NCBI RefSeq assembly: GCF_910592395.1
Contig: NC_088308.1
Span: forward strand, 19,297,501 to 19,361,500
From: Lineus longissimus
Lineage: Eukaryota > Nemertea > Pilidiophora > Heteronemertea > Lineidae
Reading direction: 5' to 3'
Length of the DNA: 64,000 nucleotides
Position numbers and translations under genes: made by a program. A model generated the notes under the pieces. The model was not told the DNA's origin and searched no databases. It was given only the letters and a program-made list of their open reading frames with translations. Below are positions 10,548-53,000 of the stretch, piece by piece. How positions within the stretch are numbered: the first letter of the stretch is position 1; each line of letters starts with the position of its first letter.

Positions 10548-11957
10548 GATGTATCCATGCATGCTGAATCAGATCGGTGATTTACCCGTCAGACTTCGGA
10601 TTGTCAGTCCGGTTGTGCTTCAGTAAAACACAGTGAAACTTAAAGAAATCAGACAGACAATTCACATCATACATGTAAGCACGGCCAAATTCAATAGTGT
10701 CCCAGGGAAGACGGTTGTGTCGAGCCTGCAACCTGAAAACGATTGCACTTTCAAGGACAGAATTATGAAAAGACAAAAAGTATTCAAACTAATCTTTTAT
10801 TGTAAAAGCAATGAAATAAAAAGGTTCTTCCGAGGTAACTTTACCTCAACAGTTCTACTGCATAAAAGTTAATTCTAATTTGTTACCAAATATTCACGGC
10901 AATTGACAGATGAATTTTCATTCAAAACTATTGACGGAAAGTGAATTTCGCTCGACCTTCTAATTTCTTGTTGAAATGTCCGGCGCTGATCGGCCTGCTG
11001 AACGTGTGGACAATTTCAGTATAGGGTTCCATTCGGAAACTCGCGTTGGGGAATTCCATATAATGAATCGATGCATCAATGCTTTGGTACCGACTGAAGA
11101 GCAGGAAATCAGGGGCATAGTACGTCAATTGATCTGCAGTCAACATTCAGAGGCCTTTTTAAGGGACATGGTGACCCCGTCAGTTTAATCCAGACAGGTT
11201 AAAAACTCGCCATATTAAAGCGCACTGATCGAATCTCTAAAATAAACTAAAACATACATTCAAAGAAGTCTTTGAATGGTAAATAATGCTTGCAATATTC
11301 TTGAAAGAAGAACCCATAAAATGATTTCGATGCCTCGGTTCAAAAGCAAAATCGAAATTCAGTCCGAAAAACATTGAACGACACGTTAAAAAAAACATCG
11401 GGCTGCACTACAAGTCAGTCCGATTGTAACAATTGATTTACTTACTCAATTACAGAACAACCACGCTTTTCACGCAGTAACAAAAAAAAATAAAAAAATT
11501 TACAAGTTGATATTTCTCAGTAAGAAATAACTTTTCAAAAGTAGTAACATCTCAAATGTAGTCAACATTGATGATCATCAAATGTGGTAACATTGTAATA
11601 TTCAGTAATAACAGTTCATACATAACCTTGATGTATCCACACATAACAATGCAAGCCAATAAACGACCCCGACTAAAGGGCAGTAAAAGAAAAATCGACC
11701 GTGGCTTAAAGTCTAGCCGAACAACTAAAAAAGATACCAAAACCAACAAACCAACCTCACTCCGTAACAAACGACATCCGTATGCGATTACAGTGCACCA
11801 CACTACTCCTACATACAGTATCACAGAAAGTCACTTTGGGCGAAATAATCACTGCCCCGAGAGCTTTCCCATTGCATTCTCGGTGATGATCTCTGCACCC
11901 TTGAATCTAATCAGTCCTGGCCTTTCTGAGACACCGTGTGTACGATTACAAAATACT
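10548..11957. other. convergent intergenic stretch
   Basis: This lies between the stop codons of the convergent lectin (+) and ZP (-) genes and should hold both 3' UTRs. The lectin poly(A) signal is at 10815. For the ZP gene I see only weak minus-strand candidates (a variant ATTAAA near 11184). Short reading frames here, such as 10976-11188, show no family resemblance. Confidence 0.5.
10815..10820 (+). terminator. poly(A) signal AATAAA of the lectin gene
   Basis: AATAAA lies about 270 bases after the lectin stop codon, in a plausible 3' UTR position. Confidence 0.5.
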
Positions 11958-20665: not shown

Positions 20666-23600
20666 CTAGTCTCCTTTCGAACCCATTCCTTTACTAGATG
20701 GCAATTCGAGCATTGCATCATCCAACTTCATTTCAGTGATTTCTAAGTCCAGATCTAAATCTATATCTAAATCGCCTCCAAGAACTGGCCCAACAGCACT
20801 TTCATTATCACCTGAACCTGTACTATCAACAGTTTCAGATGCACTTCCATGATTGCCTGAACCTGTATGATCAACAATTTCAGTTGCTGCACCAACCAGA
20901 TCATCAGATTTAGGAACATCAGATTTAGAAATGACTGACGTATCCTCAGTTTTTACAATATCTGTCTCTTGTTGTTTTACACTACTTTCAGCAGTGCTAC
21001 TTTCAATAGGTTTGTCATCGACACTTTCAACCATGGCCTCAGACAATGCAGGCTCAAGGTCTGGTTCATTAACTTTTTGGCTGTCTAGTTTATCATCAGA
21101 TGCAGTGTCTGTATTTAGGGTAACTGGTTTAGAGTCAGAGTCCATTGCACTTGTTGGGGTATCAGCCTCCTTCGCCAGTGAACTTGGCACAGGAGATATT
21201 GCCCGAGTGGCTACTGGTTCTGGTGGTATCTCCTCTTTCTCAGGCACTAAATTCTCCATTGCTGATGTCACCTGGTTGATGTTCACAGTACCAATTTTGC
21301 CCTGAAATAGAATGCAAGACAACTGAGGACTGCAGAAGAAAAAGAAATCTACATGATACTAGTAGACTTGATCAAGGACATCCTTTACAGAACTACGCAA
21401 TGCTCTCATCAATTGAGAGGTGTTCAAAGTACTGTGGTGTCTCCCTAAGGATACAGTAGCCTCTTGGTAGAGATGTTCATTGGATGGTTCCACCACACCA
21501 AATTTGTTCCCTATGAGATGTTATAGTATAGCACAGGGACTGACCTCAAGTATACACTCCAAACATTTCCAACAGGGTCAAGAAATCTTTAATGAAATAG
21601 TCTTATTTTAATGTCACATTTGGCACTTACTAGTTTTGCCAGATCCAAGACAGTCACCCCAAGAGCCTGAGCCACTGCGGTTGGGGGAAATAAGGCCTGT
21701 AAACACTTATTGATGAATGGGAGAAGTTCTCTGGCAAAAACATGGCAGAACTGACCGAAGGCATCCTTCTCTCTGTGGTCGAATACAGACTCTTCAGCCC
21801 TGAGAGAAAGCAAAGAACAACTTTTAAAAACTCATTAGAAATCAACACGCAAAGTTTCAATTGTCATAGATACTTCTCGTGTCAGAAGTAAATGCTGCAA
21901 TTCTCAAACTGTGTTTGAGACAAGCATGCAATGTATCCTTGATATATTCTTTTTCAACAAGATTTGAGCACTCCAAATACAGTCTATCTGTCTCTCCAAC
22001 AGTGTGCCTAAACCATCTTCGATGATGTGATACATGATCATGCAAAATAAGAACTAGCATGATATCATTTTTAGAGGTGAACCTAATTCTAGTTCAATAA
22101 ACTTTAATGTACATGATACATGACTCACAATCCAAAGTTCTTCTTCAAGAATATTACGCACATGAATTAGCCAATGACTGTGCCAACACTTCAGATAGGC
22201 ACAAAGTTCTAGATTCTACATTTCAATGAAATATGTTAGAAATATCAATTTGTCAAAATGAGCTACCTGTGGAATGCCAGTATAATCCTGACCACTTCCT
22301 GGAGCGACTTCTGTACCTGCAGAGCAACACGACCAGCAAGTGATATGGGAGCACACAGCCTCAGGTCATTGAAGGCAGTCAGTATGTTGTTACAGTAGGC
22401 TGCCAACGGTTGGAAATCTAGAAGAATCATAGGAGGAGACAGGTGCAAACTCTGAAATTGAAAAGTTGTCATTGTGTTTATTGAGTCCTATCGTAAAAAC
22501 GAAAACTGAACGTCACATACAGATTTTGAAGATTGCAGACGAGGCAGACCACAACAAAGAAAGGCTTGTAAAGAAAGATGTGTAAGCACTGAGAGAATGT
22601 CTGACCAGCAAAACAAAACAAACTTGTCTCACCTGTGAGGCATATGAATATGGAGACGACACCGTAGACGTAGCAAGGAGACTGTACGACTGCATCGACT
22701 CCTCAAACCTCTTATTGGCATCCACAAGAATAGAGTGCAACCCATCCATCGCCGCTCTCTGAAAGATTGGCGGTAGGAGGCCTCTGAAGTCCGCACCCAC
22801 TCTGCTGAAGGAGAGGCCAAAGTACATGCACTGGCCGATGAGGGAGTCCAAACGACCACCAACACCTTTGTTCAGGTCCATTTGTAGAGTGTCCAAAAAC
22901 TGTGAAACCTGCGGAATAGAAGTGATGCAAAAATTATATTGCCACCGTGGATAAGTCACTACTCACTGAGCTTACCACTTGGCTTCAGACACAGTCTTAA
23001 CCACTGGCAACTACAATTTTGTATGGTATCATCAGATCTATTGTTGGCAATGGTCACAGGGATCATGCTTATACATAAAGAGTCGGTCCTCGAATCAGAA
23101 AGAAGAAATGTTACCTTCTTGACAACCCAACCATGGAAGAGTGTGGCTTCGTTTGTACTGTCATCTCTGGCTGACATCAGAGGGTCATCGTCGGAGAAGA
23201 TGGCACGATACTGGGTGATGATGTCGAACAAGTGCACACGACTTGCTTCTATTGTCTTTGTGATATGATAGTAGGCTGTAGAGTAAGAGAATAGACATTA
23301 TGGGTTTATTTGTAAAGTGAAGGAGTTTTGGAGATTTGTTCTGAGACACAGAAAAGGCAGCCTCCTTCAAATGAAAATCTCCCTTCATCCGCACCCGAAC
23401 ACCCCAATATTTCAGCAATGTCCTGGTAACATCATATAACAAAATATCATTTCAAGAACATCATACTCGGTGCTACTTACCATCATCTTTGGGGATGCCA
23501 CTCAATATACTCTGAAACCACGAATCTCTCGCCTGCAACAAAGCAAGAGAAATGCAATTTACATGCTAAATTGTGGTACTACTTGCCAAAGAAAGCAGAC

Positions 23601-29000: not shown

Positions 29001-32000
29001 TCTACTAGTCATAATTGCTTACCAAGTGAACTCTTTTTTAGCTAGAAAAAGCTTCAGTTATGGCACGAAGAGGAAGGCGGAATCAAGTAGCCAGGATAGT
29101 GGAATCGGTGAGGAAACGCCTTCAAAGAAAACCAGGGTGTCTACATCTCCAAGGAAGAAATGTGAAAGTAATGATGTGGACATGAAAGATGCAATGGTCG
29201 AGGAAAAGAATGTAAGCGTCTTATACTGAGTTTTGGTCCTGTCAGGAGGTTTTGAAACTCATATTCAATACTGGCTGTTGGTGGCAGTCCATTAGTATTG
29301 AGGCAAGCCTCGAAAGATTTGTGAAGAAGTATGCACAAGTACTCGTAATATTCAAGAATGGGAGAAAGAATGACATGTTTAAACACTAATCTTCCTTGAA
29401 CATGACTATGAGTTGTTTCCTTTTCCATAACATGTTAATTTTCTTACAGGGTTCGTCTCCTGCAAAAGAAGAGATAATGGAAGCGGAGCAGAGTGAGTCT
29501 ACTGAGGTTGGACGGGAAGAATCTAAAAAGGAGGATGAGTCTGGTACAGTAGTGTTTCGTCAAAATCAGCTAGCAGACAAATGCCATCCAAAGTCTTTAG
29601 GGCCTTGCAGTCGAGTTGGCTTGCAAATGTTAGAGTGATGGCTTCCAAAACTTGTAAACCACTGTCTGGCGCTTAGAATTTTTCTATCTCTGAGTGTAAA
29701 TTTGCGAATACAGGAGTTGATTATTCAGGTTATCAGTTTGATTGAGTTGACCAATCACTGTCTGCTGTACTAGAGAGATCAGGTTAAGAAGAGAGACTTG
29801 CTACCACAAACTCCTGAGGTAGACAAACAAAAATAGGAACACTGAAAGATGGTGTAATCGATGACAACAAATTAAAGTAGTATCGCAGAAAATTTATTTG
29901 AAATTGCCGCCAACTTCACATCAATCTATGATTTTCATTAATTTTCAGATGGTGACAAGTCAGAGAAGAAACCCACTAGTTCTGGGAAAGGAGCTTTTAT
30001 GAATTTCTTCGGGGGTAAGTGCAAGTCATGTGGTATAACTCTAACTTTGTATAGTCTGTGTGAGACACGATTGCAAAGACATTTTCTAGTATTTGACATA
30101 CATGTATGATAGCGTTTACACTCTGTATTAAAAGTTCTGTTCCTGCTGAAAACTATGGTTGGTACAAAGAAATGAGCTTTCTTGTAATGGAGCACTTGTA
30201 GGCCTATAAGTATAAAGGAAATATCAATGTTTGGTTGCTTTTGTCAGTTGAGTTCAGAAAGAAAGATTACAAGCCAATTTTTAAGCAGAGGCAAAGTTAG
30301 GTAAGATACTTAGGCCTACAATTTTCTACTTTGTGCATGTGCCCTGTACCAAATCAACTGATAGTGCAGTGGAGAATGATGCTGCCCGCCCTGTGCTTTA
30401 GCTTCTACTAGTGCTAGTTATACCTCCCTCTCATTCACTGGTATCTCCTGTGTGGTTGTGTGCAACTGACTAGCACCAGGTGATACCAGTGTATGCGTTG
30501 GACCGCAGGCTTTAGGAAAACTGCATGCTCATGCGATGAGAAATCTGCCTCTGCTGGTGAAAAGAAAGGAATATGTCACTATTTGTGAAGATGATTGCTT
30601 ACAAACGACCATAATTGAATGGAAAGATAGCCAAGTTGGAAAGAGGTGTCGCCATGTCAGAAGAGACGCATTTACCTGAATCATCATTTACTTTCTTCAA
30701 CCATTAGGTGCAGCTGTAGCATGTGTCGTGCAGGCAGTAGAGTCAGAAATCGCTCTGGTACAAGTTTTGCATGCCTTTGTGTCCTGGTATTCAGTGGTTG
30801 CTCTTGGGGGGAAATGGCCAAGCACCACAGTATACCAGGGCTTTCGCATGTCGTCATATACAGAAACAGACCAGACACACCAATTCGGAAGAAAAAAACT
30901 GATGGACCCCACCATTGTGTTGGCAAAAAGCTTTATTTATTCCTGGCCTAAAATTGGTAAAAACGGCCATCAGTTAGTTCAGCTCATGCTGTTCTTGAAC
31001 CCTGTTATATCTTGTGAGCTTTGGCTGTGACAAAACCAAGCACCAGGTTATATCAGGGTGCTTGCATGGCATGTACGACTGGAGCATGTGCTTTGGAATG
31101 TCAACCAACAAGATGGTCAGCTACGAAACCTGCCCTGATATATTTCCATTGTTGGAAAAGTAAGCTTATGGAAGACCAGTTTGTGCCATTGCTTTAAGAT
31201 TCCGTGAGAACTTTGTGATGGGAAATTTACTACGCAAGCCGAGAAGGTTTTAAAAGGAAGTGGAACAAACTTATGTCCGTCTAGGGGACTGGGATACCAT
31301 GTGTGCTATTTGTGATTACTGCCAAAGCACCAGGCTATTTCAGTTCTCTGGTGGACAGAGTACGCCAGTAGGCCTTCAGCATGTAGTAGGCCTAAAAAAA
31401 GATCTTCTGTGTGAGAGAAATATTCATGAATTTGATGCAGCTTCTGAGGTGGGTATGAAAATAATCAGAAAGCAGGTAGGTAAAGCATGTCTTTAGAAAT
31501 CATCTGCTTGCTGTCCACTCGGGCATGTGGCTGTGCCTTTCACAGGAACTGGTGAAACTTGCGTGCCATCTGTGGTCAAGCAAAGCACCAAGTTTGATCA
31601 GTGCGTGTGTTTGGCATTGCTTGCTATGACTGTATCTAGTTCTTCAATGCTAACCCAGTATCAGAAATGTGCAATTTTTGTGGAGGAAAATTTGAAGAAA
31701 AAAAAACAATTTTGACAATTTCGTTATGGCTTTAGTTGCAGTTTGTAAATATTTGTGTCGCTGATTGGTGTTGGAATTCCTGCTTGATTGTGACGTCTTC
31801 CCTGTGCTCTGCCAGCCTTCTCTGTGGCCTGATACAGTTTGTGTGCTGCTGGGTGTGTCGGTTGACCAAGCACCAAACTATATCAGTTCATTCAGTAAGG
31901 CATGTCATCGTCTTGAATGCTGCCCTTCCACCACTGTGAATATTGTTGGTGAAACTTCTCGAAATGTGGCGACTGCTATGTATTGTGTGCCAATTGTCTG

Positions 32001-35000
32001 TGTGACAAAGCACCAAAGTATACCAGTCTCTACTTTGAGATGTCCTCTTCCAGTCTGGTCAGTGAGTTTTATTGCCACAGAAATTTGCCCTCTGCCCCTG
32101 AAGCTGTGTGGCTAATTTTAATGTGGGTTCTCCACTGGCCCAGAACAGAGGTTCCTTCTTGCATGACTTGACTTGGAAATGTCCTAAGTCTCGTTGTCCT
32201 CGTGAACTGCTGTAGTTATGAGGCCTGTTATGATATTTGCATGACAAAACACCGGACAACACTGCTCGATTCACTCGCAAAATGTTTTGCATGTTTACTT
32301 TTTCCAGCTGAAATTCCATAAAACAGTTGCATCACAACTCCTACGTTCTGCTTTATTACAAAATGTGTGCCTTGGCCTGATGTCTCAAACTGGCTGTAGC
32401 ATGTGTGCCCTGTCTTGATAACAAGCGGCAGCATGTGTGCCTTGCTTGTTAACTTGCTGCATGTACGTGTGACTGCTTCCTGCTTGGCTTTATTTTGAGG
32501 CTTGATATCACCTGTGTGCCATTTCTTGCATTTGAGAAAGCACCATGTTATACCAGGTCTAAAACAAACCTCGTCTTCTGTTGTAAAGTCTCTGCAACTG
32601 CCTACATTTCACAGAATCCAATTGCGGAGTGTCCAAGAACATCATTATGATCTCTCTCTGTTCTTCATCTGAGTATGTCCTCTTTGCTTCTTGCCCCGCC
32701 TACATGTGTCCTGCTATACTCTGTGTTCTATTTGTATATAAGCTCAAAGCACCAGAGTATACCAGATTGCATGTTCGTACCGTCTGCTATTGTCCAGGAA
32801 TCTTGATGCATCTACTCTCGCATGTGTATAAGTGCATCTTGAAGCTTCATTTGTTTTTGCCACAGGTATAAAAAGGAAGACACTTAAAAAAAGTTGTACC
32901 ATCTTTGAGTTTGCAAATCTTCTAACCTTTCCATCTTTAAATTCCAATGTGTCGATAAGCATTGTTCTGATTTTGCTTATGTTCGAAGTTTATATTTAGG
33001 CCTAAATTCCTTGCTGTTCGCTTTATATGTTCATAATTTCAGATAAAATTTCCAGTTTTCAGAAGATACTTGTGTTAATGTGTTAATAAATGTGGATGGC
33101 GCTCGGGCTGTCCTGTGTCCTGCTGTATCTTGTGTGCTATTGTTCATCAATTCAAAGCACCAGGTTATACCAGTACATATGCCATGCCATTTCGAAAGCC
33201 ATTCTTCCGACTCAGTTTTAGGTAGAACCAATTTTAAGCAAAGTGTCTTTTCAATACGGGGTAAGTGTTGCTTTAGAACATTGATAGTTTAGGCCCAGAA
33301 TAAGAAATCTAAAATGGTATAGACATGGATTTTCTAGTTTGTGGTGGTGAAATTACAAATTTGAAGGGTAAGTTATTCTTGATCTGTCAAAATCATTGGC
33401 GCATTTGGGTGTGTTGTTAATTGTATGGTCAAGCATTGAAAATGTATGTCCCCTCTTGCATCCAATGACTGTAATTAACAATGCTTGTAGTAGCGCCATC
33501 TATCATGAAACCTGTTGTCCAGCCTCTCGTCGCATGCATGTCATGTGCCCTGGTATGTTCTGTGTGCTATTTGCTTCGATTCCAAAGCACCAGAATATAC
33601 CAGTTCACCTGGTCGCAGTGATCACCGTTCCTACATGTGCTACTATCCTCTGTATCTAAAGACCGAGTTTGAAAACTTTTGTAAATATACATGCCCCATG
33701 TTGTACTGTTCTTCTTTGATTTGAGAGATCATTGCGTGTGGTTGTTAAGGTTAATCATGAGGGGGTTGGTGACTGTTCAGAATGTCTTTGAAAAAAATAG
33801 GTGAATGGGAATGGGATGCGGTTGTTATCCAGTGGCCTTCTAGGTGTTTCCTGAAGATAACCTAGAAAGAACCTGTCGGCTTGTGAATATCTTTTATCAA
33901 TGTAACCTGAACCTGGCTTCCAACCAGTTTTGTGCACTGGAATATCCTGTGTGCTATTTGTATTTGATCAAAGCACCAGGATATACCAGTTCATAATCTG
34001 GCCCTTGCGTTTTGTGATGCTGCTACTATAATGAGTGTAGAATGCTGCCTTGCCTTGAATGATGCTTGTCCTTGCTACTTGTGCTGCATACTACTATTCA
34101 TTTTTGAGGACAAAATAAAAGACATTGGAAGAATTTGGTAGATCTTATATTTTGATAAGTGCGCCATCATGAAGAAAAAAAACGAAACATAATCATGGAA
34201 TGAAAACTAACGATGATGAATTGGAACGGATGTCTTCCTTACATGTTTACCTCTCCTGCCCAACAGCTTCGGCTGACTAGCATGTGTATGCCCGCATCCT
34301 CCTGACTCTCGCATGTACCCTCGCCTCTGCCCAGGCTGGTATACTCTGGTTGCCATTTGGTTTCATGCAAAGCACCAGGTTATACCAGGATGGGACGATG
34401 GTAAACTCCATAACTAATAAATCTCCATGCTGGATTGCCAAAGTAGCTTGGAGAACTCTTCCTGGAGCTATGTTAGTGGCTTCTGTCGTGTTGATTCTTG
34501 TTGCTGGATTTCAAACTAATCTTGCCCAACCCCCCTTTCACTTTTTGGTGACGTATGCCCTCTCCGAGTCGCAAGAAGAAAAAAAGATGTGAGAAGGAAG
34601 GATGCTGAAAGACAACCATTTTGACCTGTTGGCACTTGCACTGATATCTCCTGGTGGGTTTGTCTTAAGTATCAGAGCACCACGGTATACCAGTGTGAAC
34701 TGTCTGCATGACGACCAGCCGAGGAAGGAAGTGGATTGAAAATATTCAGGAGAAGAGGAAATGTTTAGTAGGAAGTACCCGTCATCCGTGCGATTGAGGA
34801 AAAGTGGATTCAGAATAATTAACACGGATTGAGACTTGCTGCTACATATTCTATGGCCCATTTTGGCTATTGCTACGCATACTAGGAGAAATGTAGGTTA
34901 GCTTGACCCAACCAATTTGTAGGTTAGGTGGCCAGTTTCACTGTGAAAACTAGGCCTAAATTGTGAACCCGAAGACAACTTGCCAAGTGGAATGTATGAC

Positions 35001-38000
35001 GCTGGTGAAATATTCATCTACCCATGTGGTTGTTCACGTGACTGTTGAAATGTCCTTTCATGTGAATACAAGAGGGTTATTTCGCTAAGCAATTCTTCAG
35101 TTCTAGCTCATTGGTGAAGTAGTAAGTGTACTGTAATAGACAAACTAGGTGGTACTGTTTATAGTGTGCATGACAAACTAATGTCGCTTTGCCAGTTGGT
35201 TTCTCGGGCAACTGAACTAGTTGTTGTTGCTTCTCGTAAATGGACAAGACATTAGTTGGTGGTATCTAAATTTTGATCATCTAATGGAACATCAAGGATA
35301 GCATGTTGTCTGCTGGAGCAAGGACTTTTGACCGGTCTCCTGGTTTGAGAATACTAAGTCATGCATCCTATCTAGTGTCCTGATATATTCTGGTTGCTCT
35401 TGGATACCTGACCAAGCACCAGATTATACCAGGGCAGGAGTGGGGCACGTTCAACAAAGTCCATGTAAAATACCCGAGGAATTCAAATGCAAAGTTGTGG
35501 AAGATGGTTTGCCCTTGTTCCTGAGAAATAGGCCTTGCAGAGACAAGACCACAATTGATTTTTTAAGCCTTTTAGCAGTTAAATTGTCAATGTTTGACCG
35601 CGACGCATCAAAGAACGCGTGGTGTTGTGAATCTGAAATTTAGATTATGTTATTCCGGACAGTCGGGCAAGTAAATGGTGAAAAATAAAATGGTGATTGA
35701 CCACGGAAATTTTTTTTTAATCGACAAATTAGACAGACTTTGATATTTCCACTCTTTTCAGGCAACTGGCAGAAAAAACTCAAAACACGCCCCCTATTAC
35801 CCAATTAGCAAAATTCGAAATTAATTTTTTCATCAAATAATTCCTTTATATCTGTAGACTTGCCACAACAAATATTTTTTCAATACCTCTCCAAATATGT
35901 ACTTGAGAGTAAAAAACATGCACTCGTCTAATAGATAGGCCTGGACCCTCCAACCTATGAATATTCATTAGTGGTCTTGTCTCAATGAAGGTACATTTCA
36001 GGGGTTAACATTTTGAGATTTTTTTCAAACTAATGTACATGACATCCCACAACTCTCCAACAAAGGAAAGTCATATCTGGACATTTTTGGAGAAATGAGA
36101 GACATTTCAAAGAGTGGTACAACTGTGCCAAAGCGACGAAAGAGGACAAAATCGACAAAAAGTCATGATTTTGCACCCAACAGCACCAAATTCAAAGACC
36201 TGCCCTGGCCAGAATAAGCAAGCTATGGAGCTGAAACTTTAGGATGTGATTTAGGAATATCTTTGCTGCTTAGGGCACAACTTTCAGAATCAAGGCCTAA
36301 GTAGTTTCAAAGAAATTACAAAATGAATGGCAACACAACAAGACTTGTAAAAATGAAACCGAACTTAGACCGGGGTTAGGTTGACTCTTATTTGGGTCAA
36401 ATTAAGTTTTTTTCTCATTATTTTAGCTTGTTTTGACCTTAAATCATCAGCAATACAATATTCTAAATGAATTAGAGTGATTTGAGCACATTCAAATTTT
36501 TCACTATATTGACCCAAAATGTAGTGTAAATAGAGACAAGACCACAATTGATTTTTTAAGCCTTTTAGCAGTTAAATTGTCAATGTTTGACCGCGACGCA
36601 TCAAAGAACGCGTGGTGTTGTGAATCTGAAATTTAGATTATGTTATTCCGGACAGTCGGGCAAGTAAATGGTGAAAAATAAAATGGTGATTGACCACGGA
36701 AATTTTTTTTTAATCGACAAATTAGACAGACTTTGATATTTCCACTCTTTTCAGGCAACTGGCAGAAAAAACTCAAAACACGCCCCCTATTACCCAATTA
36801 GCAAAATTCGAAATTAATTTTTTCATCAAATAATTCCTTTATATCTGTAGACTTGCCACAACAAATATTTTTTCAATACCTCTCCAAATATGTACTTGAG
36901 AGTAAAAAACATGCACTCGTCTAATAGATAGGCCTGGACCCTCCAACCTATGAATATTCATTAGTGGTCTTGTCTCTGCAATATAGCAGGTGACACTGGG
37001 AGGCCGAAAGATCTTATAGTTCAGTTCTGTTCTTTGCTTGAAGAGGGCAACACTGTATCTGTAATGTGTTCTGATAAAGATAGGTGTCTCTGCGGGCTGC
37101 ACTGCTACATATATTAGTCATCTGCAAATATTCCTTTGGGTTTCTTCAGTTATAGGACTTGTAGGGATTAACTTTAGATGTCCTGCAGCACTTAATTCAA
37201 CTTGGCAGATAACATTTTAAAAGGAAATATTCAATTCAAATGATCAAATTGATGCGGGGAAGATTGCCACATTTCTTTCTCGAGTTATAACCTGTTTTCT
37301 TGTTCAAATATAAAAAATGTTAAGTTACAAGTTTGTTTCTCTTGTTATTTTTGAGGCTGATATACTTTCAGGTAAAAGTCAAACGCAAGCTAAGAAGAGT
37401 AAAGAAACTAGTGTAAAAAACTCGGAGACTGAGAAAAGTGACTCTGGTCCCAATAAGGATGATTCAAAAACTGACCATGCTAACAAAAAGGACCTTGCTG
37501 ATAATTGTGCAACCAAAGATGCTACTAAAACTAATGGTGCGTGTGAAGACATTGGTAAAAAACCAGCAAAAAGTTCTAAAACACCTGAGACAGAAAAGAA
37601 AAAGAGAGGTCGAAAGAAAAGGGAAGACAAGAAATCAGAAAAAAATACGAAAGATGTAAAAACTGAAGATTCTGAGAGAAAGACTGATTCAGAGTCGGAC
37701 ACTAAAACTGGCATTGAGAAAGTTGAAGTGAAAAAGGAGATGGGTGCCAGTGATAAAGTGAAAAAGGAGACTGATAAAAGTGATGAAAAAGTTGAGGTTG
37801 GAAGTCAAGTCAAGTCTGCAGTGGAATCTGAGAAAAATAAGGCGGCGGCTATGAGGTAAGTTCAGTGTTTGATCCTGGATCCAATAGATTTAGATTCAAA
37901 AAGGTTTGAAACCTCTGGTTAGTACATATGTGGTGATTGGTACTAATTTGCTTGAGGGGTCAATAAAGTACAAAGAAATATTGCGTTCACTACTGTCTCC

Positions 38001-41000
38001 AATCCTTTTAAAATTTAGATTGGTTTCTGATGTCGTCGAGTGACCTCTGACTAACTGTCCAGAGCCAATTGGAATTGACCCAATTGAGTAAATTCACCAG
38101 TTTCAAGATTGGAAAAAGCAATTTTTAGTATACAAACATTTCTTGATAGCTCCACTTCCAGTGATCCGACAAGACATTCGAGGTTTTACTATGTCTTGAG
38201 ATCTTTCTGATAAGTGATATGGTTGAAATATGTCTCGGCTGGTCCTGTGTCGTGGTCTTTATCCAACCCAATACCTCTGTCGAGACAAAGTCTTACTCTT
38301 TGTCATATGTCCGATGTTTTACAATGTCTCGATCACCCTGCTAGGCTGCTGGAGTTGGCCTTTATTTATGATGTCCGGCGAGCACTTTGTTGTTGACAGT
38401 AATACTCCAGCCACGGACAAGGCCAAGGGATTATCTTGTTGATTCCATTTGCTGACAGCCTGTCTTGTCATTCCATTCCTGTTCTTGGAACAGCTGGGTG
38501 ATGTTTCGTATTTCACAATCTGCCTTGCACTAAAATTGAAAACTTTTCTATAACGAAAATAAACTAAGATTCGTGTTGAATCTTGTTTCTTTTGAGGACA
38601 ACTGGGCTTTTCTGTAAACACTACAATTCTACATATTCAAAGTTAGTTTGATGCTAGATGAATTATATCTTAGCCTCTCTCTTCAAAATGACAAGACACC
38701 TTCCTCCCCCACGGCCTAAACGCTTCCCTGTCAAATAAGGTCATTCTATAGTGTCATAAATCTGATATCATCCACGGTACAATCCCAAGAATTAGCACCA
38801 ATGACTGGTTTCATCTTCAAGTATTAAACTTTGTGGCAACTGCTGATTTAAGCATTGTCCTCCGACACCCCCTGGGGAGTCGTCAAATGAATCAGTCTTG
38901 TCCCCAATCAAACACAAAAGAGTTTGACGTCTTGTCACCATTTGTTTATGACTCACAGCCACATGGTTAATTTGAAATCCTAACAGTGCTTTCTTCAAGG
39001 TAGATTATGCTAACTTGATTACTGGAACAATAGAGGGGTTTCACTTTGCGAAATTGAGCAGATTGTGGGGTTAAGTGATATGTTAACTCTAAAGTGGTCA
39101 TACCCAGGGATTCAGGTTGTGACGTTGTCCCCCGAAGACTGATTTGTAATGAAAGAAATAGTGACATAAAAACACCTCAGACCCTTCACCTCAGTCATGA
39201 TGAAGGCTCTCCTTGGTGTATTTCTGAAGGAACGAGGAAGAAGGCAGCAGCACTGACCGATTCACAGCCCACAGAAAAGTGCTCAAGGTTTTTGCATGAT
39301 TGGAGAGCATAACTCATCCAACAGTTTTCTGCACAATGATCAGTGACAATTGCTCTGTATAATTCCTTTTTAAAAAGATTTTTATTTTTTCCACACTGAC
39401 ACATGATTATTGCAAGGCAACATTCTGTACAAAAGAAATCTTCATGAAGGTTTGATTTGCATACCAAGAGTCAAAGAATCATACGTGTCGCATAAAATTC
39501 TTGCACGAGATTCTTTCATAAATAAAAACTGCAGGATGCAATAGAAATCACCCTCTGCTCTGGGCTACTCCATACTCCCATCCCTTGCGTGACTACCCCA
39601 GAGTCGGGTCAGAAAGTGACCCAACGAGACGCACTTGATTCTGTTACCACAATGTAGCTATACAAACACAATGAAGTGTCCTCCTTCCACGTCCATTATC
39701 ACCTTTTATTCAATGGTGTCCTATTTCTATCTCTTTGCCAAGCTGTCCAGCGAGCTTTTCACCTGCTTAGTTGCAGTTTTGAATGACATCGTGGAGGTGA
39801 ATCATTCTGTTGTGTTACAAATTTACATACACTGACTTCATAGCACGACGACGAGAATATGTATATAATTTTGATTGAAAAAGACTGAATGACACATGTA
39901 CGACAACATATTCCTTTAAAATACTAGAATTCACACAACACATTTGAAAAAAGTGCTGTACAGATAGTGCTGGCCAAAGTTTATAAATTCTTGTAGATAT
40001 TTGATGCTCCATGTCCACAAATACACATAATAGCTTAAATTCCATTTACTTCCTATTCTGTGTTTCTTGTTTCTATAGAAATTCCATCGACACTAAACAA
40101 GATTTTAGGATTTCAACGCATTGTCCTGTTTTTCACTTTATTGCCTCTTTTTATTATGTTTTCATTCAGGATTTAATGATTTATCCCCAAATCTCGTTTC
40201 AACAATACAAACTATCATATTCCCTAGCTAATCCTCAAAAATTAGATACCCAGAAAAAGTGGAATAATCGTTCAAAAGTGCTGAATTCTTATTCAGCTGT
40301 ATCCAGACATGATCGTCCACATTGAGGTGAAGAATGATCGTGTTACTTCCAGTCCCGTACCCCGCACGTCCATCTCCATGCAGCGGTAACTGATGATTCT
40401 TATTTACCATAATCCATGCGAAAGCATCCCGCGTATCCTGGCCAAGAATATGCGTCATGAAAATATAAGTTCCGTTATGACGGCAAACGAAATGCGACGT
40501 GTGCACATCGAATCCGTCACCGACATTTGAAAAAATCTTATCAAATTCTACAACAGTATCCTGAGGTTCTGGTCCTAATTTCTTTCCTCTACTAGCGGAG
40601 AAGGCGATCTTTGCACCTGCACTCTGCCCAGGCTCTCCCTTGGCCCCCTTGAGGCCGTTGTAACCAGAGTTGCCAGGTTCCCCTTTGTTGCCCATGTAGC
40701 CTTGCGCACCAGCATCGCCTTTGTCACCCTTGTTTCCCTTCTTGCCGCGGATGCCGGCCTGACCAGGTCCACCTGTTGATAGGAAAGAATGCAGTATTTT
40801 GAAATGCACCAAGGCAAGGGCTGAAACTTATTTGCACTCCCAAAGCATTATGTTGAACTGGCTTGATAATCTCCATTTACTGGTAATGAGTTAGTTGATT
40901 GAGCACTTTCAGTCACAGCACTGACACATAGCATCAGTCCGGGGTGTCCAATCACTACAACACCTCCAGGCTAGAGATTGGTCCTCATCACAAGTTGTAT

Positions 41001-44000: not shown

Positions 44001-47000
44001 GCAGAGGTAATCGGGCATTGTTTAATCTTGAGGGATGATACTGTCGGGAGTGGTGTTATTTCCATTGCCTTGTTCTGCTGAGCTAGGAGATGCTGGACTC
44101 ACCGAAGACAAGCCTGTAGTGTTCGCATATCTTTAGGGAGCTTTATACAGAGGGCATGAGGTCTTGGAGCCTTGTGTGTCTAGAGATAACTTCTGAATCT
44201 GATAATCCAAGTCTCTGTCCGTTTCATCTTGACGTCTGATTTCGGAGTGTAGGATATGCAATCTGTCTGCTATGACACATCGTCAATAAAGCGGTGTTCT
44301 ACAAGGAGACAGGTTTCCATATCTAGAGTTCATCTTTGGGCTCTTGACATTTTGTATCTTCTTACGCTCTTGATCTGTATCTTGTGACATTTGCTGTCAC
44401 TCCGACTGTGACATGGTGTATTGTTAAAGTACTTGCATCCTGTACTGGCTGAACACTTCCCTGGACAGGCCTAACATCCGAAACAGACAGGGTTTTTTTT
44501 AACCCAGAGTATGTTTACCTCTTAGCCGCAGTGATACAGACTAGCACCTTAGATTACGAATAAAAATGCAATATGTTACTCACTGACAGCATTGTTGGAA
44601 CATTACTTCGATCAATGTTATGTCAAAGACTATAACAATCGATAAATTGAGCAAAAAAAGTATCCGCTCAGATTCACAACCTTGGTGTTTTGACATTGTT
44701 AGACTTTTGATTGTAATATAAAGACAAGAAATGTTCAAAGGTCTTGATTACGCGATCAATTGAGTCTGTATTGACTCAAAGGGAGAACAAATGATATTGC
44801 CACAATAATTGGTATGGTTGTTTTTATCATTATCATAGGCAAACGGCTGAAAAATATACCATTGGAGTTAATATTGGGATCCAATATGGATAAAAATCCC
44901 ATGGTAGGGTTTCTAGAAAAATGATCCTAAGAAGTCTATTGATAAGGAATCTTGCTATTAAAGATCTTTGGTGTCAGGATCAAAAGGTTGTGTTGTGATC
45001 TGCCGTTAGAGTCTGTTCTAGAAGTGGGGATAATCTGGTTGTTGGGTGTTGCTGTTTGCTCAGATTGAAAGAAAGGGCTGTACGATGAACGATTTCAAGC
45101 GTAAAATTCCCCAAAATGACCATGCTGTGCTCTATTTCTCTTTGCAGCTTCTTCGGTGGTCCAGCAAAGTCCACGACAATTGGTGACGATGGCAAGAGCT
45201 ACAATCCATCAGTATCCAAGTACCATCCCATTGATGATGCGTTCTGGAAGAAAGGAGAAAAGTAAGTCCTATTCGAGCACGAGCCAACTTGAACCCAAAA
45301 CCAAATTAGAAACAAGAGGAAACTGAAGTCATATCATATATTATTCAAAGACATTTTCTATCCTTGTTTGAACTCATTACCAATACAATTTCTTTTGAAA
45401 CCGTACAGAAAAAATCGAAGTGTCGCTTTCTATCCGCAGATAATACAAGCTTGGTGTTGCGTGTCATAGCTGGTGACACAAGATGTAACTTGACCTGTTG
45501 TGAGTCAACTTTCATGCAGGCGATGCTAATTATTTTCCTACTGTGGGGAGAAGAGTTTTTTTTATAAAAATGCTTTTTAACCACTTCATTCGCTATGACA
45601 GACAGCATTTGCAGTTTGTGGCATTATGACACAATGCATAGCGTGGCGAGTTAAAAATTGTAAAATCAATTTTTCCTCATTTTTTACTTCCAGAGTGCCA
45701 TATTTGGCTTGTGCCAAGACATTTGAATACATCGAAGCTCAGAGCTCTAGGTGAGGTTTCCAATCCTGATACTGGTAAAAATTCCATTCCTGGTAATGTC
45801 TTAAATTCCCAGTAACTTCCCAGGCTTGATGATAAACCTTGGTGTCACTTGTATCTGATTGCCTTGCATTGTCCTTGCCGGGGAAAACCTGTAACAGAGA
45901 CCAGTCACCTGCTGCCTTAGTGTGTTGGTCTCCGAACCAAAGTACATTGTACCTTTCAGATCCATTTTCCGACAAGAGTGCTGCCATCTTCTAATTAAGC
46001 CGAAAGTATATAACTCATTTGACAGACTGCAACAAAATTGTTGACTGCTGCCACCAGTTAGTGCCTCATGAAGATTATAAATGAAAGGCCACGAGTCCAG
46101 TTCTGTCAGAGGAACACTTTAAAATGGGAACTATTCAATGTTTGATTTCAAAATGTGTTTTTGTTTTCAGACTCAAAAACATTGAAATGCTCTGTAACCT
46201 GTTCCGGTCGATCATTGTCCTTTCGCCAGATGATCTTCTTCCCTGCCTCTACCTCTGCCTCAACCGACTGGCGCCCGCTTACGAGGGCGTCGAGCTGGGT
46301 CTTGGGGAGACCGTCCTCATGAAGGCCATCGCTCAGGCAACGGGCAGGAGCGTGGATAAGGTCAAGAGTGATGCTCAGAATAAGGGAGATTTAGGCCTGG
46401 TGGCTGAGGTAGGTTTATAGAGACAACTTGAGCTACCATTCTGTCAAGTTACAGTGATGGAGCAATAGTAATAAAAAAGCTAGTGTTAACATTCCTTTTG
46501 CAAGAAAGAAAAAAAGGGTTTGTAACAAATCTCATTATAAATCAGAGGCTATGGCTTTGGAATGATTAGTAATATTTCACCTCATTTGACACATCGAATG
46601 ATAATTTTCTTCGTAATGACTTAAGCCTGCCGTATCAGTTTCCCAGAGAAAAGGGTAAAAAATACTGTCATACTCATAAGAGCAGTAATGCTGTCCTCAT
46701 AGTCTGACTTTGAAGAGCTTTGCTATCAACCCACACCCCGGGAATATTTGTGAAAAAGCAAAAAGTTAATCAAATTGATAATTATAAGTTTCTTGTGATA
46801 TATTCCAGGCAAGTCGAGGTAACCAAAGAACAATGTTTGCACCCCCAAAACTGACAGCACGAGCTGTCTTTAACAAGTTGAAAGAAATTGCTGTCTTAAC
46901 TGGAAATGCTGTAAGTTCTGTTTCCAAATTGATTCAAAATATCTTTGTGAACTGTAAACATGTGCGGTGTCTGGATTTGAGTGCCTCTTTACTTGTATTC

Positions 47001-50000
47001 ATTGGTGTTTAAAAGACTGAACCATGCGCTGAGTGATATGTCTTGAAGGGGACCACCTCTGGAAAGAATTGGGTCATTATTGTCCCATTTGCTTTCAGGT
47101 GATGAACAAAAAAGTTGACAAGATCAAGTCCATGTTTATAGCCTGTCGCTACTCTGAAGCACGATATCTGATTAGGTGTTTAGGTGGGAAGCTGAGGATA
47201 GGTCTGGCTGAACAGTCCGTGCTGGTGGCTCTTGGTCATGCAGTTGTCCTCACACCCCCTGGGCAAGGTAAGTGGTTTAGCTCTGACAGCCAATAACATT
47301 TTGGGGGAAAGGGCAAAGGAAGTTCCAGGCCGCTTGAAAAGATAATTGACTCGCTGGAATCCGTTGTACAAGTAACTTGTATAAATTGGGGAGTGAAAGG
47401 GTTTTCTTGACTTGAGAGTCGGCCAATTACACACAAGCGTTCTTCCTCTATCATTATTAATAAGAAATATAATATAAATTTCAGAATACCCTCCAGAAGT
47501 CCTGAATGCAGGAAAGGGCCTCTCTGCAGATGCACTGAAGAAAAGATTAGAGGAGGCTGTCCTCACAGTAAAAACAACATACAGGTGAGAAATTGATATA
47601 AAACTTGATTTTGGAATCTATGAAATTACAGAAATGAGATAACCTTATTTCGATATTATAATGAATCGGGGCTTTTGATGACATACATGTAATATGACAC
47701 TTAATAGTAAATATCATGAGTCTCTGGTTGAATAGTGACATGTTGTTATAAAGCCAAGCACTGTTGTCATCTTGATTTAGATAATAAACCTCAGTCATGT
47801 GTGATCAATTATACCAACTTGCTAATTGCCCAATGTTGTTTACCACTGCTCTTGGTAAGTTTGTTTTGTATATTTTGGTTCAGTGACCAAACTTTGTTGT
47901 CATGCTTTGTTCAACATTACACCTAGTCATGCCTCAATTATTGATTATATAACAAAGTGAGTTCTGTTCAGTTGGGTAGGCCTATAGAAGGGCCTTTGCT
48001 CAACTTGTCAGTTCAGTGTGTGTGGCCAAGGGAGCAGTACAGACCTAGAACATCATATTTTCAGACAACAATTTTGACATTCCTTTGCATATTGAAACGA
48101 ACTCTGACCTTGTTATGGCGTCTGCTAATGCTCCAAGGGACCATTCAATGCCAGCTTCGAACACTGAGCCTGAAATCGACAAGAAATACATCTGCCCTGT
48201 CTGTCTGTCTGTACTGAAGGAGCCTGTCCAAACGAAATGCGGCCACCGATTTTGTCGCCATTGCTTCAAGACGTCTGCAGGAGATCGTTTTCGCACGAAG
48301 TGTCCCGTGGATAATACGTGGCTATCGACTAATAAGGATGTCTTTGAAGATGCTGCTTTTAAACGTGAACTTTTGTCTGTCAATGTGGCCTGCCCTCACA
48401 AGAATGATGGGTGTACCTGGAGTGATGAATACCGTGGACTATCCAGCCATATCCGCTCATGTGAATACGTTACGGAGACTTGCCCGTTAGGATGTGAGCG
48501 ATCGTGCTCGAGATTGACAATGCAACAACACGTACAAGCTTGCCCGAATCGTCTGGAAGCTTGTAAACTCTGTGACGACGACATCAAAGTTGGCGATTCG
48601 CTCAAACACATGATTCTTGCCTGCCCGAAATTTCCCGTGACTTGCAGTTATTGCAGCCGGCCAGATGTTGTCAGAGAACTTTTAGGGGATCATGTTGATC
48701 CCGTTCTTGGAGACTGCCCCAATGTCAATGTTCACTGCCAGTATTACACGAAGGGTTGCGAGTTTTCAGATTGCCGTAAGGACATGCAGAAACATTACGA
48801 CGAGAACATAAACCAGCACTTGCGTCTTGTGTGTGATAAGTTATCCGACACAGAAAGCAAGCTCTACTATCAGGACGGCGAGATCGACATCTTGAAACAA
48901 CGACTAACGGAAGTTCAGGCAGACTGTGCGACACAACGGGACCAGATTCGTACATTAGAAGCTGCGGCGTCACCTACTGCAGAAAACGGGGGAAACTTAT
49001 TCTGGCGGATATCACTACCAGAGGGCGATGCATTCCGCAGCCAGTCGTTTAACGTCGGAGCAAATAACAGCGGCTACAAGTTTGCCTTGGCGATTAACCT
49101 GAGCGATCTTGAGAGCGACCAGTCCGGAACTTTCTCGACAATCGCCGTGATTTTACAGAAGGGCGAACATGATGATCAGCTGCCGTTCCCGTTTACCGGA
49201 CTCTGTACCGTTACTGTCCTTGACCTCAGCGATGACGAGCAAGTGCCCTACGTGAAGAACTTCATCCTGGAACTCCCACGTGCTCACTCTGAGAACTTTG
49301 TCGAATGTCTGCAGAATAATGCTAGAAAGTACAAACTGATCAAGTTGGATCATCTGCTAGAGAACTATTCGCATGACAGTAGTGTTGTATTGAGAGTGGA
49401 TATTCAGCCCATGACCGATGGCTTGTAGAGTGACACTTGCTCCATTTGATCCTGTAAACTGTTTTCAGCCAAACTCATTGTACATCTGTGATTAGATGGC
49501 TTCGGAATGATATGTAATATTTCACCTCATTGGACTCATCAAAACATAATTCACTTCTCTATGACCAAAGTACACGTAGTTTTATGAACTTTTATAAAGA
49601 ACTTGTTGAAAAATCTTTTGAATTTTGAGAAGGAATGGTGTTATGAGCTTTTATGAAGTAAACGTAATGAAATTTTTTCACCTTTTTAGAATTGTGTTAT
49701 GTATTTTTATCAAGTACATGAAATAAAATCTCTTGAATTTTATCATCTTTCAAGATATTTTTTAGCTTAATATTTTTATCATTGTGTTGTCATGCCCAAT
49801 ATCTTGTGATTGTATTGATATTGTGATTCCATTTTCTTTATGATGTAAAAGTATAGAGGTGTATAGGAAAGGTATATTTTTAGGAATAAAAAATAGTCAT
49901 ATTAAATCTGTCTTCTTCACTGGACATCTCAAGGCCACATCTTAAGCAGTACAGCTAGTCCGTTGTGGAATTAAAGGGTCTGATGACTACGAAATTTAAT

Positions 50001-53000
50001 CCGAAGGCTAAAGAAAGTTGACAAGTGCCAAAGGTTTGTTTGATTCCTTCTCATGTGTTACTTTGGACCTACAACGTTGCCATCTTTCTTGGCTCTTGGA
50101 ACTAATGATATGAGCAGCCAGTTCTTTAAACCGTTGTACTAGTCCCAGACTCCAGAAGATGATAATTAATTGATTTCAGAACCCCTTGTTGAGAGGAGGA
50201 AGCATTGTTACCAATCCTCATGGACCCTCCTTCCATGTAGGCTGAACTATTCAGGTTGTTGTCTCAACCAAAATGCATTGTTTCTATCCAGTGAATGTCC
50301 AAACTATGATGCCATCGTCCCGGTGCTACTAAAAGATGGATGGGAGAAGCTGCCTGAAAAATGTAAGATTACGCCTGGTATCCCTCTCCGGCCGATGCTG
50401 GCGCACCCGTCCAAGGGTGTGACGGAAATCTTCAAAAGATTTGAGGATTCAGACTTCACATGTGAATGGAAATATGATGGAGAAAGAGCTCAGGTTTGTA
50501 TCTTTATTCCTGGGTGATGCTTCGATCTTTTGAATTCTAAACATTGTGGAAGTCACTGCAGTGTAAAGTAAAGTCTTCTTCTAGTCGACATTCAGCGCAT
50601 GACAGGCTGCCTGACCCTGTATTATTGAACCAAATAAGAATGCGTCATAAATCTTCAGCTATGGCTTGGGAGTGATTAGTAATATTTCACCTCATTTGAC
50701 TAATCGAATGATAATTTTCTTCTTTATGACCCAAGCCTTGTTCAATCAGTCCCTCCAAAAGGTACTGTTAAATCGATGTTGACACATTTCGATCTACATT
50801 GAATCAATGTCTCTCTTTCAGATTCATGTACTTGAGGATGGCACTGTCAATATCTACAGCCGGAACTCGGAGAACAACACATCCAAATACCCCGACATCA
50901 TTGCCAGGATGCCCAGTGTGCTGAAGGAGGGGACCAAGTCTTGCATTATCGACTCTGAGGCGGTCGCCTGGGACAGGGAACAGAAACACATCCTTCCATT
51001 CCAAGTTCTGAGCACACGGAAACGAAAGGTTAGTATAGATCTGTCCAGTGGTGACTGAATCTCACTTTCGTTACCTGATCAGTGAGGGTGGGATTAAACT
51101 TAACACCATCTACTTCTCTAACAGATCATGGTCATGCATACAGAGGAGGCTCTTTGATATTTGTCCTCTTTATCGTTCCCAAACAACTTCTCTTGCAGAC
51201 TAAGTGTCGAGGACTTGGAACTCTGTAAGACCTAACAAATCTATCAATCAAGACCTGATAAACTTCAAACTTTCTTTGACTACACCAATTGAAATTTGGT
51301 TATCAGTTTGTAATTGTGCGTCTCTATTTGTCACCAGGACGCCGATGCCGCCGAAATCAAGGTCCAAGTCTGCCTGTATGCGTTTGATCTCCTCTTCCTG
51401 AACGGAGAATCCCTGGTCCGGGAATCGTTACGAACGAGACGCGAGAAACTCAAATCCTGCCTGAATGAGATCGAGGGCGAGTTCATGTTCGCAACGGCGA
51501 TGGATTCTACTGACACGGACCAGATTAGTGAGTTCCTGGATGAGTCAATCAAGGGCAACTGTGAAGGCCTGATGGTGAAGACGCTTGATAGGGATGCAAC
51601 GTACGAGATTGCAAAACGCTCACACAACTGGCTCAAGGTGAGTTAAATGAAAATTCAGAGAAAGTTTTCAACTTCCTGTGCACTACTGTCTAATAATTAT
51701 ACCAAGTGAAGTTGCAAGATTTCATTTGTTCGGTTATCCAGTGTGATCAAAGTCAAGTACTTGGTGGCTTATTGGGCCTTGGAAGGAAATGATGCCGATT
51801 TTCAACACGGAAAGACTGGGTTATCAGTTGAAACAAGTGAAAACCATTGTAGATGTGAGGGTAATGATGGCTTTGGAATGATTAGTAATATTTCACCTCA
51901 TTTGACTTGTGGAATGATAATTCTCTTCTCTATGACCTAAGCCTGGATGTGTGCCTCCTCACTTAGAAAAAATTCTATCTCTAGTCTAACTTATCTAACC
52001 TCAGTCGTTATCTCTGAGAGGGTGTTGGGGAAAGAATAGCATATGATGTCATTTACTGAGTACTAAAGAAGATGTCTTTTCCAAAAATGTATACCAACTC
52101 TTGCGCCATTCAAAAGGGGATTTCCAAAAGTTGTTCGTATTTTAGATCTTACTTGACTCCTCCTGTATTTGCTTGCAGCTTAAGAAAGACTATTTGGAGG
52201 GTGTTGGCGATACCCTGGACGTGGTTCCGATCGGTGGTTACCATGGCACTGGCAAGAGGACGGGCAAATATGGTGGATTCTTACTGGCCTGTTACGATGA
52301 GGAGAATGAAGAGTACCAGTCTATATGTAAGGTAAGTCTTGGAAATCTTTGGATTTGGAAATGGTCGTCCTAAGATGGTGTTGACACAATGTTTTTAGGA
52401 CAGCAGTGCTGAGGACAGTGTTTATAAGCTCAGCAGAAAGATGTCCATGTCACGTTTGTACATCTGAAACCTGTTTCAATTTCTTTACAGATTGGTACAG
52501 GCTTCAAAGACGACGACCTAGAACAGCATTCCAAGTTTTTCAAGGAGCACGTTCTGGAGAAACCTCGCTCCTACTATCGGTACGACCGTGGGGTCGAACC
52601 AGACCACTGGTTCGATGCCGTCCAGGTGTGGGAGATAAAGGCAGCTGATTTGTCCATCTCTCCTGTTCACTTTGCTGCCGCGGGACTGGTGAGTAGTCTT
52701 CAAAGGCTCAGAAAAAACTCTGGTTTGTACAGTTAACATTCCATTAAGCCCCCATTTTTTCAGTGCTTTAGTGTTGACCCAATGTTATCCAAGTCTTGGG
52801 TCTTGTGTCCATTGTTCCATAATGACATGGTGCTTCTGTGAGCTGTATGTTTTCCTTTTCCCTGCAGGTTGACCCCGAGAAGGGTATATCACTCCGATTT
52901 CCACGTTTCCTCCGAATACGGGATGATAAGAAACCAGAAGAAGCTACTTCAAGTGCTCAAGTAAGTTCAGGAGATTGCAGGTCCTCAAGCTGATAGTTCA

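Follow-up and report, generated by a model that had tools for sequence, protein, structure and literature searches.

Large microRNA (miRNA) clusters built from a single family are known from several animals, among them miR-430 of fish, C19MC of primates and miR-35-41 of nematodes. The miRNAs miR-29, miR-83, miR-285, miR-995 and miR-998 have been placed in one group (PMC2486268), and Drosophila miR-998, which has the miR-29 seed, is located in the last intron of dE2f1 (PMC4109884). We analyzed a window of 64,000 nucleotides (nt) from Lineus longissimus (contig NC_088308.1, positions 19,297,501 to 19,361,500, forward strand), for which a first-pass annotation had proposed an expanded cluster of miRNAs with the miR-29/miR-285 seed in an intron of the DNA ligase 1 gene (LIG1). 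Like miR-430, C19MC and miR-35-41, this array combines many related copies in one stretch; it differs from them by the seed family, by its location in the intron of a replication ligase and by its wholly diverged spacers. The best functional parallel is mir-11~mir-998 of Drosophila, which also places a miRNA with the miR-29 seed in an intron of a cell-cycle gene, but has two hairpins in E2f1 compared to 15 related hairpins in LIG1, and nothing indicates that the placement is homologous. We consider it very probable that the array is a polycistronic intronic primary miRNA (pri-miRNA) whose 3' products have the miR-29 seed, form a diverged miR-29 subfamily and are put out in S phase, and that this subfamily was multiplied at two sites of the genome.

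The array consists of 15 hairpins between positions 30437 and 35435. Number and sense orientation were as annotated before, while the length of each hairpin was 56-62 nt instead of 55-61 nt when the bounds were set by the register of the 22-nt 3' arm. All copies are on the + strand and were identified by folding and by R1, a covariance model built from the 15 array hairpins: h1 (30437-30492), h2 (30783-30841), h3 (31001-31059), h4 (31288-31346), h5 (31548-31604), h6 (31828-31889), h7 (31972-32029), h8 (32501-32559), h9 (32710-32768), h10 (33119-33176), h11 (33549-33606), h12 (33936-33992), h13 (34335-34391), h14 (34640-34696) and h15 (35379-35435). The unfiltered R1 scan of both strands of the window returned the 15 copies with 52-73 bits (h12 had the top score, 73.1 bits) and their own 15 reverse complements; beyond these, nothing better than E 0.53 and thus no decayed copies were found. 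AGCACCA is present on the 3' arm of each of the 15 copies, as the first-pass annotation had stated. It occurs 23 times on both strands of the window compared to 8.9 expected occurrences, and none of 100 shuffles contained as many.

The fold energy of the 15 copies with flanks ranged from -20.3 to -33.0 kcal/mol, compared to -8.5 to -19.1 kcal/mol for the five other AGCACCA sites on the + strand. Relative to 300 dinucleotide shuffles per hairpin the z values were between -0.7 and -6.8. Canonical animal miRNA genes form a local hairpin with at least 16 pairs between arms of 20-26 nt. The array has such hairpins: 15-18 pairs connect the two 22-nt arms (at least 16 in 14 of the 15 copies, 15 in h7), which are separated by 12-18 nt. 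A search of the host intron for additional miRNA-like hairpins gave 74 unbranched windows. Outside the array hairpins there were 39 of these, the best with -26.9 kcal/mol, and the one region that was refolded was unexceptional (z -0.88).

Conservation among the copies is as wide as a miRNA duplex, including both arms and ending just outside. By blocks of 10 nt the identity was 0.78-0.81 in the 3' arm, 0.65-0.67 in the 5' arm, 0.34-0.40 near the loop and 0.23-0.29 more than about 10 nt outside the hairpin, and mean pairwise identity was 0.78 for the 3' 22-mer and 0.65 for the 5' arm. The mature arm with the seed is therefore conserved above loop and flanks, as measured among paralogues only. 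If the positions of the 3' arm are numbered from g1, the seed (g2-8) is invariant, and g12-19 (consensus UAUACCAG) is 88% identical, compared to 38% for g9-11 and 41% for g20-22. The earlier statement that the bases after the seed differ applies to g9-11 and g20-22 but not to g12-19. Position g1 is A in 13 of the 15 copies, U only in h1 (UAGCACCAGGUGAUACCAGUGU) and G in h14. None of the 105 seed letters deviated from the consensus, whereas 14 of 105 facing letters of the 5' arm did, which argues that the 3' arm is kept as a sequence, beyond stem pairing alone. The stems also covary. Paired cells amounted to 88.3% compared to 82.5% after shuffling, and double changes were present in 7 of 16 pairs; neither value was equalled in 500 shuffles, and the number of further pair types was equalled in 3 of 500, with a shuffle that ignores the relatedness of the copies. 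When the partners were slid by 1-3 columns, paired cells fell from 88% to 27-43%.

No detectable sequence is shared by the spacers (best blastn match between spacers E 0.19), from which we conclude that the copies have been apart long enough to saturate and that the expansion is old, not recent. An order of tandem duplication was considered and rejected, as the distance between copies hardly correlated with their order in the array (Mantel r 0.17, P 0.08). A satellite-like tandem repeat, with a hairpin shape that has no function, may describe a second array on another contig (C20, see below), where 26 places follow a strict period of 149 bp. For the array in the window we rejected a plain tandem repeat and consider it very improbable: the spacers ceased to resemble each other long ago, whereas all 15 copies retain an intact seed, the stems covary, and R1 revealed no decayed copies.

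Canonical animal miRNA genes also have a basal stem beneath the Drosha cut. Duplexes between the cognate flanks of the hairpins had -5.0 kcal/mol, compared to -3.2 kcal/mol for swapped flanks (P 0.00045, the 3' segment including two overhang bases), which points to a lower stem without sequence conservation. A CNNC motif is reported about 16-18 nt downstream of 59.4% of human pri-miRNAs (PMC9905709). In the array, 9 of 15 copies had CNNC 16-18 nt past their predicted 3' end (background 0.117, P 1e-5). All offsets were scanned before this test, while the 16-18 window itself was taken from the literature (PMC9905709); the top two of 119 windows with a width of 3 were 15-17 (10 of 15) and 16-18. 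As an internal control, both hairpins of the ordinary mir-29 genes on contig C7 (see below) have CNNC at 18. As a set, the 15 hairpins thus show basal stem and CNNC. The CNNC distance, the pairing of the flanks, the restriction of conservation to the arms and the covariation had not been used in the first-pass annotation, and all support the miRNA cluster that it proposed. The array is a real, old set of separately diverged hairpins with AGCACCA and most of the marks that canonical miRNA genes show in their sequence, and its interpretation as miRNA genes is well supported at the level of sequence.

A miniature inverted-repeat transposable element (MITE) or another hairpin-forming mobile repeat, inserted repeatedly into the LIG1 intron, would also explain arms that are common to all copies and their irregular spacing. 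The first-pass annotation had named hairpins scattered throughout the genome as the observation that would speak for such an element. We searched the genome (391 Mb in 30 contigs, the window being C1:19297501-19361500) for the pattern AAGCACCANNNTATAYCAG, allowing one mismatch. Of the 32 places obtained, 13 belong to the array, whose copies h1 and h5 diverge more; the reversed pattern gave 8 places. Seventeen of the 19 places outside the array were tested and none yielded an R1 hairpin at E <=1; the two remaining ones are both on C20 (one in the stretch L053, the other at C20:4608531 on the - strand). In a genome sample of 20 stretches with a total of 200 kb, two of them flanking the window, R1 gave a single match of 19.3 bits. 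Since this genome-wide search revealed no dispersed hairpins among the places tested, we rejected a mobile hairpin family for the array. All 15 copies have one orientation and lie within 5 kb of a single intron, and their flanks are unconserved, without long repeat ends. We give a MITE hardly any credence.

The exact sequence TAGCACCATTTGAAATCAGT was found twice in the genome, both times on C7 and 2.3 kb apart. These places belong to two ordinary mir-29 genes, L054 (C7:3858440-3858660) and L055 (C7:3860700-3860920), which reached 48.5 and 54.2 bits with the Rfam mir-29 model, above its cut-off of 46.7. On C20, TAGCACCAYNGGATACCAG with at most two mismatches matched 28 places on the + strand from 4614394 to 4618955, and the 26 places from 4615230 onward keep the strict 149-bp period. 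The whole genome contained 43 matches compared to 31 for the reversed control, so that the pattern is near background beyond the run on C20. Hairpins of C20 were read in three stretches of 700, 700 and 600 bases; for 21 of the 28 places, knowledge is limited to the 19-mer. The stretch L056 (C20:4615151-4615850) contains five hairpins with alternating unit types, which scored 28.6-32.6 bits with R1 and 31.8-40.5 bits with Rfam mir-83 (cut-off 44). Two hairpins of L057 (C20:4614101-4614800) had 23.7 and 26.9 bits with R1 and no Rfam match at E 0.1. L053 (C20:4596501-4597100) has three hairpins with 23.8, 11.9 and 10.6 bits, two of them with the altered seed AGCACAU; the place that matched the search pattern folds as a hairpin and had only 11.9 bits. 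Thus, 8 of the 10 hairpins on C20 scored 23.7-32.6 bits with R1. Altogether we count 46 sites with the AGCACCA seed, of which LIG1 contributes 15 and the C20 array 28; one further site on C20 is diverged, and the remaining two are those of C7. The tail AUACCAG or GUACCAG is largely common to the copies on C20 and in LIG1 and is lacking in ordinary miR-29, which suggests that one derived copy was probably the source of both.

The array shares several features with the miR-29 group. As in mir-29 (RF00074), mir-83, miR-285, miR-995 and miR-998, AGCACCA is on the 3' arm, CAG is at g17-19 and the start of the 5' arm is similar. From the invariant block and the hairpin register, the product would start one base before AGCACCA. 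When g9-22 were compared to the array profile, snail miR-29a (P 0.005) and mosquito miR-285 (P 0.008) fitted, as did the Rfam consensus tails of mir-83 (P 0.016) and mir-29 (P 0.020). At a permissive threshold Rfam assigned h1 to mir-29 (30.8 bits, E 0.0019) and h3 to mir-83 (29.3 bits, E 0.034); apart from these, the sense matches of array hairpins at E <=10 linked h12 to mir-963 (E 0.18) and h14 to mir-29 (E 1.8). R1 scored the two mir-29 hairpins of C7 with 17-18 bits. Unlike ordinary miR-29, the array mostly has A at g1 and has the consensus tail UAUACCAG instead of GAAAUCAG, and its 15 copies stand in a single intron alongside the ordinary two-gene mir-29 on C7.

Several observations weigh against miRNA genes of miR-29 descent. 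The weakest fold, that of h14, is hardly better than its shuffles (z -0.7, 70 of 300 as good), and folds are modest in h3 (19 of 300), h8 (14 of 300) and h4 (11 of 300) as well. TG at -14 is present in 4 of the 15 copies, and two of the ten hairpins on C20 reached only 10.6 and 11.9 bits with R1. No array copy attained the gathering score of any Rfam family; the best mir-29 score was the 30.8 bits of h1 compared to the cut-off of 46.7. At E <=10, just three of the 15 copies (h1, h3, h14) matched a miR-29-type family in sense orientation, and mir-29 also matched the antisense strands of h12, h11 and h1 (E 0.09-0.4). With R1, the two mir-29 hairpins of C7 scored no higher than the top match in 200 kb of the same genome (19.3 bits).

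These scores bear on the view that the array is a genuine miRNA array which acquired the AGCACCA seed by chance or convergence and not by descent from miR-29. Such an origin would account for scores below the Rfam mir-29 cut-off, for a mean identity of only 49% between the array copies and each C7 mir-29 hairpin, and for the fit of one of 14 control miRNA tails to the array profile (-1.7), which is roughly equal to that of the two Rfam consensus tails (-1.6 and -0.95). It does not account for the location on the same arm, for a 5' start that can be aligned and the CAG at g17-19, nor for the copies on C20, which carry U at g1 together with the tail of the array and, when tandem, reach up to 40.5 bits with mir-83. 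We therefore regard convergence as unlikely, though less so than a mobile or tandem repeat. For the link to miR-29 that the first-pass annotation had drawn, the same seed and arm, the alignable 5' arm and tail and the cross-matches between models hold, while descent is not proven because no array copy reaches the Rfam mir-29 gathering score. In view of the best score of 30.8 bits we name the array hairpins "miR-29-seed, probably miR-29-derived".

The host gene was identified as LIG1 by a frame of 110 amino acids that aligns with PDB chains of DNA ligase 1 (E 2.3e-42). Among the best 120 of 5877 matches, a roughly joined LIG1 query had 75% identity to ligase 1 of Lingula and Tubulanus and 77% to that of Capitella, over 95% of its length. 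When 26 ligases were placed in a tree, the LIG1 of the window joined that of the nemertean Tubulanus (95/82), followed by the brachiopod Lingula (94/90); this tree is rough, with 8 of 23 inner branches starred, both corals placed among echinoderms, and phoronids left out. The host intron extends from 30015 to 37370 (+ strand), with the donor GGGG/GTAAGT after 30014, the acceptor TTTCAG/GTAAAAG at 37371 and matching phases, and the array occupies its first 5.4 kb. The upstream exon (29948-30014, + strand), which codes for ...KGAFMNFFG, is placed by splice sites and phase alone, without homology support, whereas the downstream Lys/Glu-rich exon (37371 to approximately 37800, + strand) is supported by tblastn and splice-site phase. 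The conserved region of LIG1 was located by tblastn at 45149-53334 (+ strand; exons 45149-45262, 45692-45751, 46169-46408 and further ones up to 53242-53334). The designation as intron 7 agrees with donor, acceptor and phase, while the number itself depends on exons read by eye and on one assumed, unseen first exon. Mirtrons do not fit this arrangement, as h1 begins 422 nt past the donor and h15 ends 1.9 kb short of the acceptor.

GCATG motifs, candidate Rbfox-type sites, are interspersed between the hairpins. From 30335 to 35306 the + strand contains 27 GCATG, 19 of them GCATGT, all outside the hairpins. In the array part of the intron (30015-35450) we counted 19 GCATGT on the + strand and a single one on the - strand, where the remainder of the window predicts 2.2; on the + strand of the remaining 1.9 kb of the host intron it is absent. 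It was the most over-represented hexamer of the spacers (19 compared to 2.2 in dinucleotide shuffles, with a maximum of 7 in 300), and the enrichment in this exploratory search holds after correction for all 4096 hexamers. Its density of 3.5 per kb and strand is about nine-fold higher than in the genome sample (0.395), in which none of 60 overlapping windows of array length had more than 9 GCATGT. The median distance of the 27 GCATG to the nearest hairpin was 33 nt, compared to 83 nt for random spacer positions (P 0.0002), and 14 were within 35 nt of a hairpin compared to 6.1 expected (P 0.0004). The effect per hairpin was smaller, with a site within 70 nt of 11 of the 15 copies compared to 8.4 expected. 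The C20 stretches L053 and L056 contained no GCATG. RbFox has GCAUG as its cognate site (PMC9911399). For particular pri-miRNAs, RBFOX proteins have been reported either to promote or to inhibit processing, in one study independently of the motif (PMC6298569). We hypothesize that the GCAUG sites add a layer of regulation that is particular to the LIG1 intron, assuming an Rbfox protein in this genome.

The enrichment of sense GCAUGU across the same 5.4 kb would also suit hairpins that act in intron processing or have another RNA role, as a splicing structure or in protein docking, without any mature miRNA. Such a role requires neither a 7-nt seed that is invariant on one arm, nor a conserved block of 22 nt, nor CNNC at 16-18, and we hold it to be highly improbable.

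Further features of the surroundings were observed. The 3' part of the host intron contains a direct duplication (about 35540-35930 and about 36530-36920, 993 bp apart) with identical reading frames in both copies. TGGTGCT at 27906 lies inside a LIG1 coding exon, which chance can explain, and we make no target claim. Within LIG1 introns there are an uninterrupted TRAF6-like frame (48109-49428) on the same strand, whose best source-named match was Saccoglossus TRAF6-like with 33% identity, and a nested antisense C1q-collagen frame (40228-40827, - strand; Pfam C1q and Collagen). Upstream of LIG1, a gene on the opposite strand has a Dor1-type exon (22513-22962, - strand; Pfam PF04124), which we take to be COG8, and about 4000-10550 of the + strand comprises several frames that resemble C-type lectins, one of which has a long stretch rich in Thr, as judged by eye from the reading-frame list.

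For the polycistronic pri-miRNA that we favor, we infer transcription, processing, strand choice, start position, S-phase coupling, targets and direction of descent in the following model. A single sense-strand primary transcript would arise in the LIG1 intron, from which Drosha and its partner would cut out each of the 15 hairpins. Dicer would then release a 22-nt 3' product, mostly starting with AAGCACCA and presenting the miR-29/miR-285/miR-83 seed AGCACCA at g2-8, and this 3' strand would be loaded by Argonaute. The 15 products would be near-redundant members of one diverged miR-29 subfamily, with a common seed and supplementary region g12-19 and free centre and tail. LIG1 expression accompanies replication, and the output of the array would follow LIG1 transcription into S phase. 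The subfamily may have originated from a copy of an ordinary mir-29, as persists on C7, that gained the AUACCAG tail. It may then have expanded at two places: an ancient expansion would have filled the LIG1 intron, and the 149-bp unit on C20 would have been amplified recently.

Among the titles listed from the open-access literature, none pointed to a miR-29-seed array in a LIG1 intron (miRBase and MirGeneDB were not searched) or to such an expansion in brachiopods, nemerteans or phoronids; the titles listed for exact array-like strings were unrelated to miR-29. Rather speculatively, the LIG1 intron could be a dosage device, which provides replicating cells with 15 near-redundant miR-29-seed miRNAs, their release being controlled by an Rbfox-type protein on the 27 GCAUG sites. 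It would then be among the largest miR-29-seed expansions known, with selection on seed and supplementary pairing and with drifting centre and tail. If the hairpins are processed, the array would be a natural experiment in miRNA dosage and would tie miR-29-seed output to a replication gene, comparable to miR-998 in fly E2f1. Its 15 old copies would then show which positions selection has held (g2-8, g12-19) and which were released (g9-11, g20-22), with a direct bearing on what supplementary pairing contributes. The genome would also present two ways in which one subfamily can expand, by an irregular array of old copies in an intron and by a tandem array of young 149-bp units.

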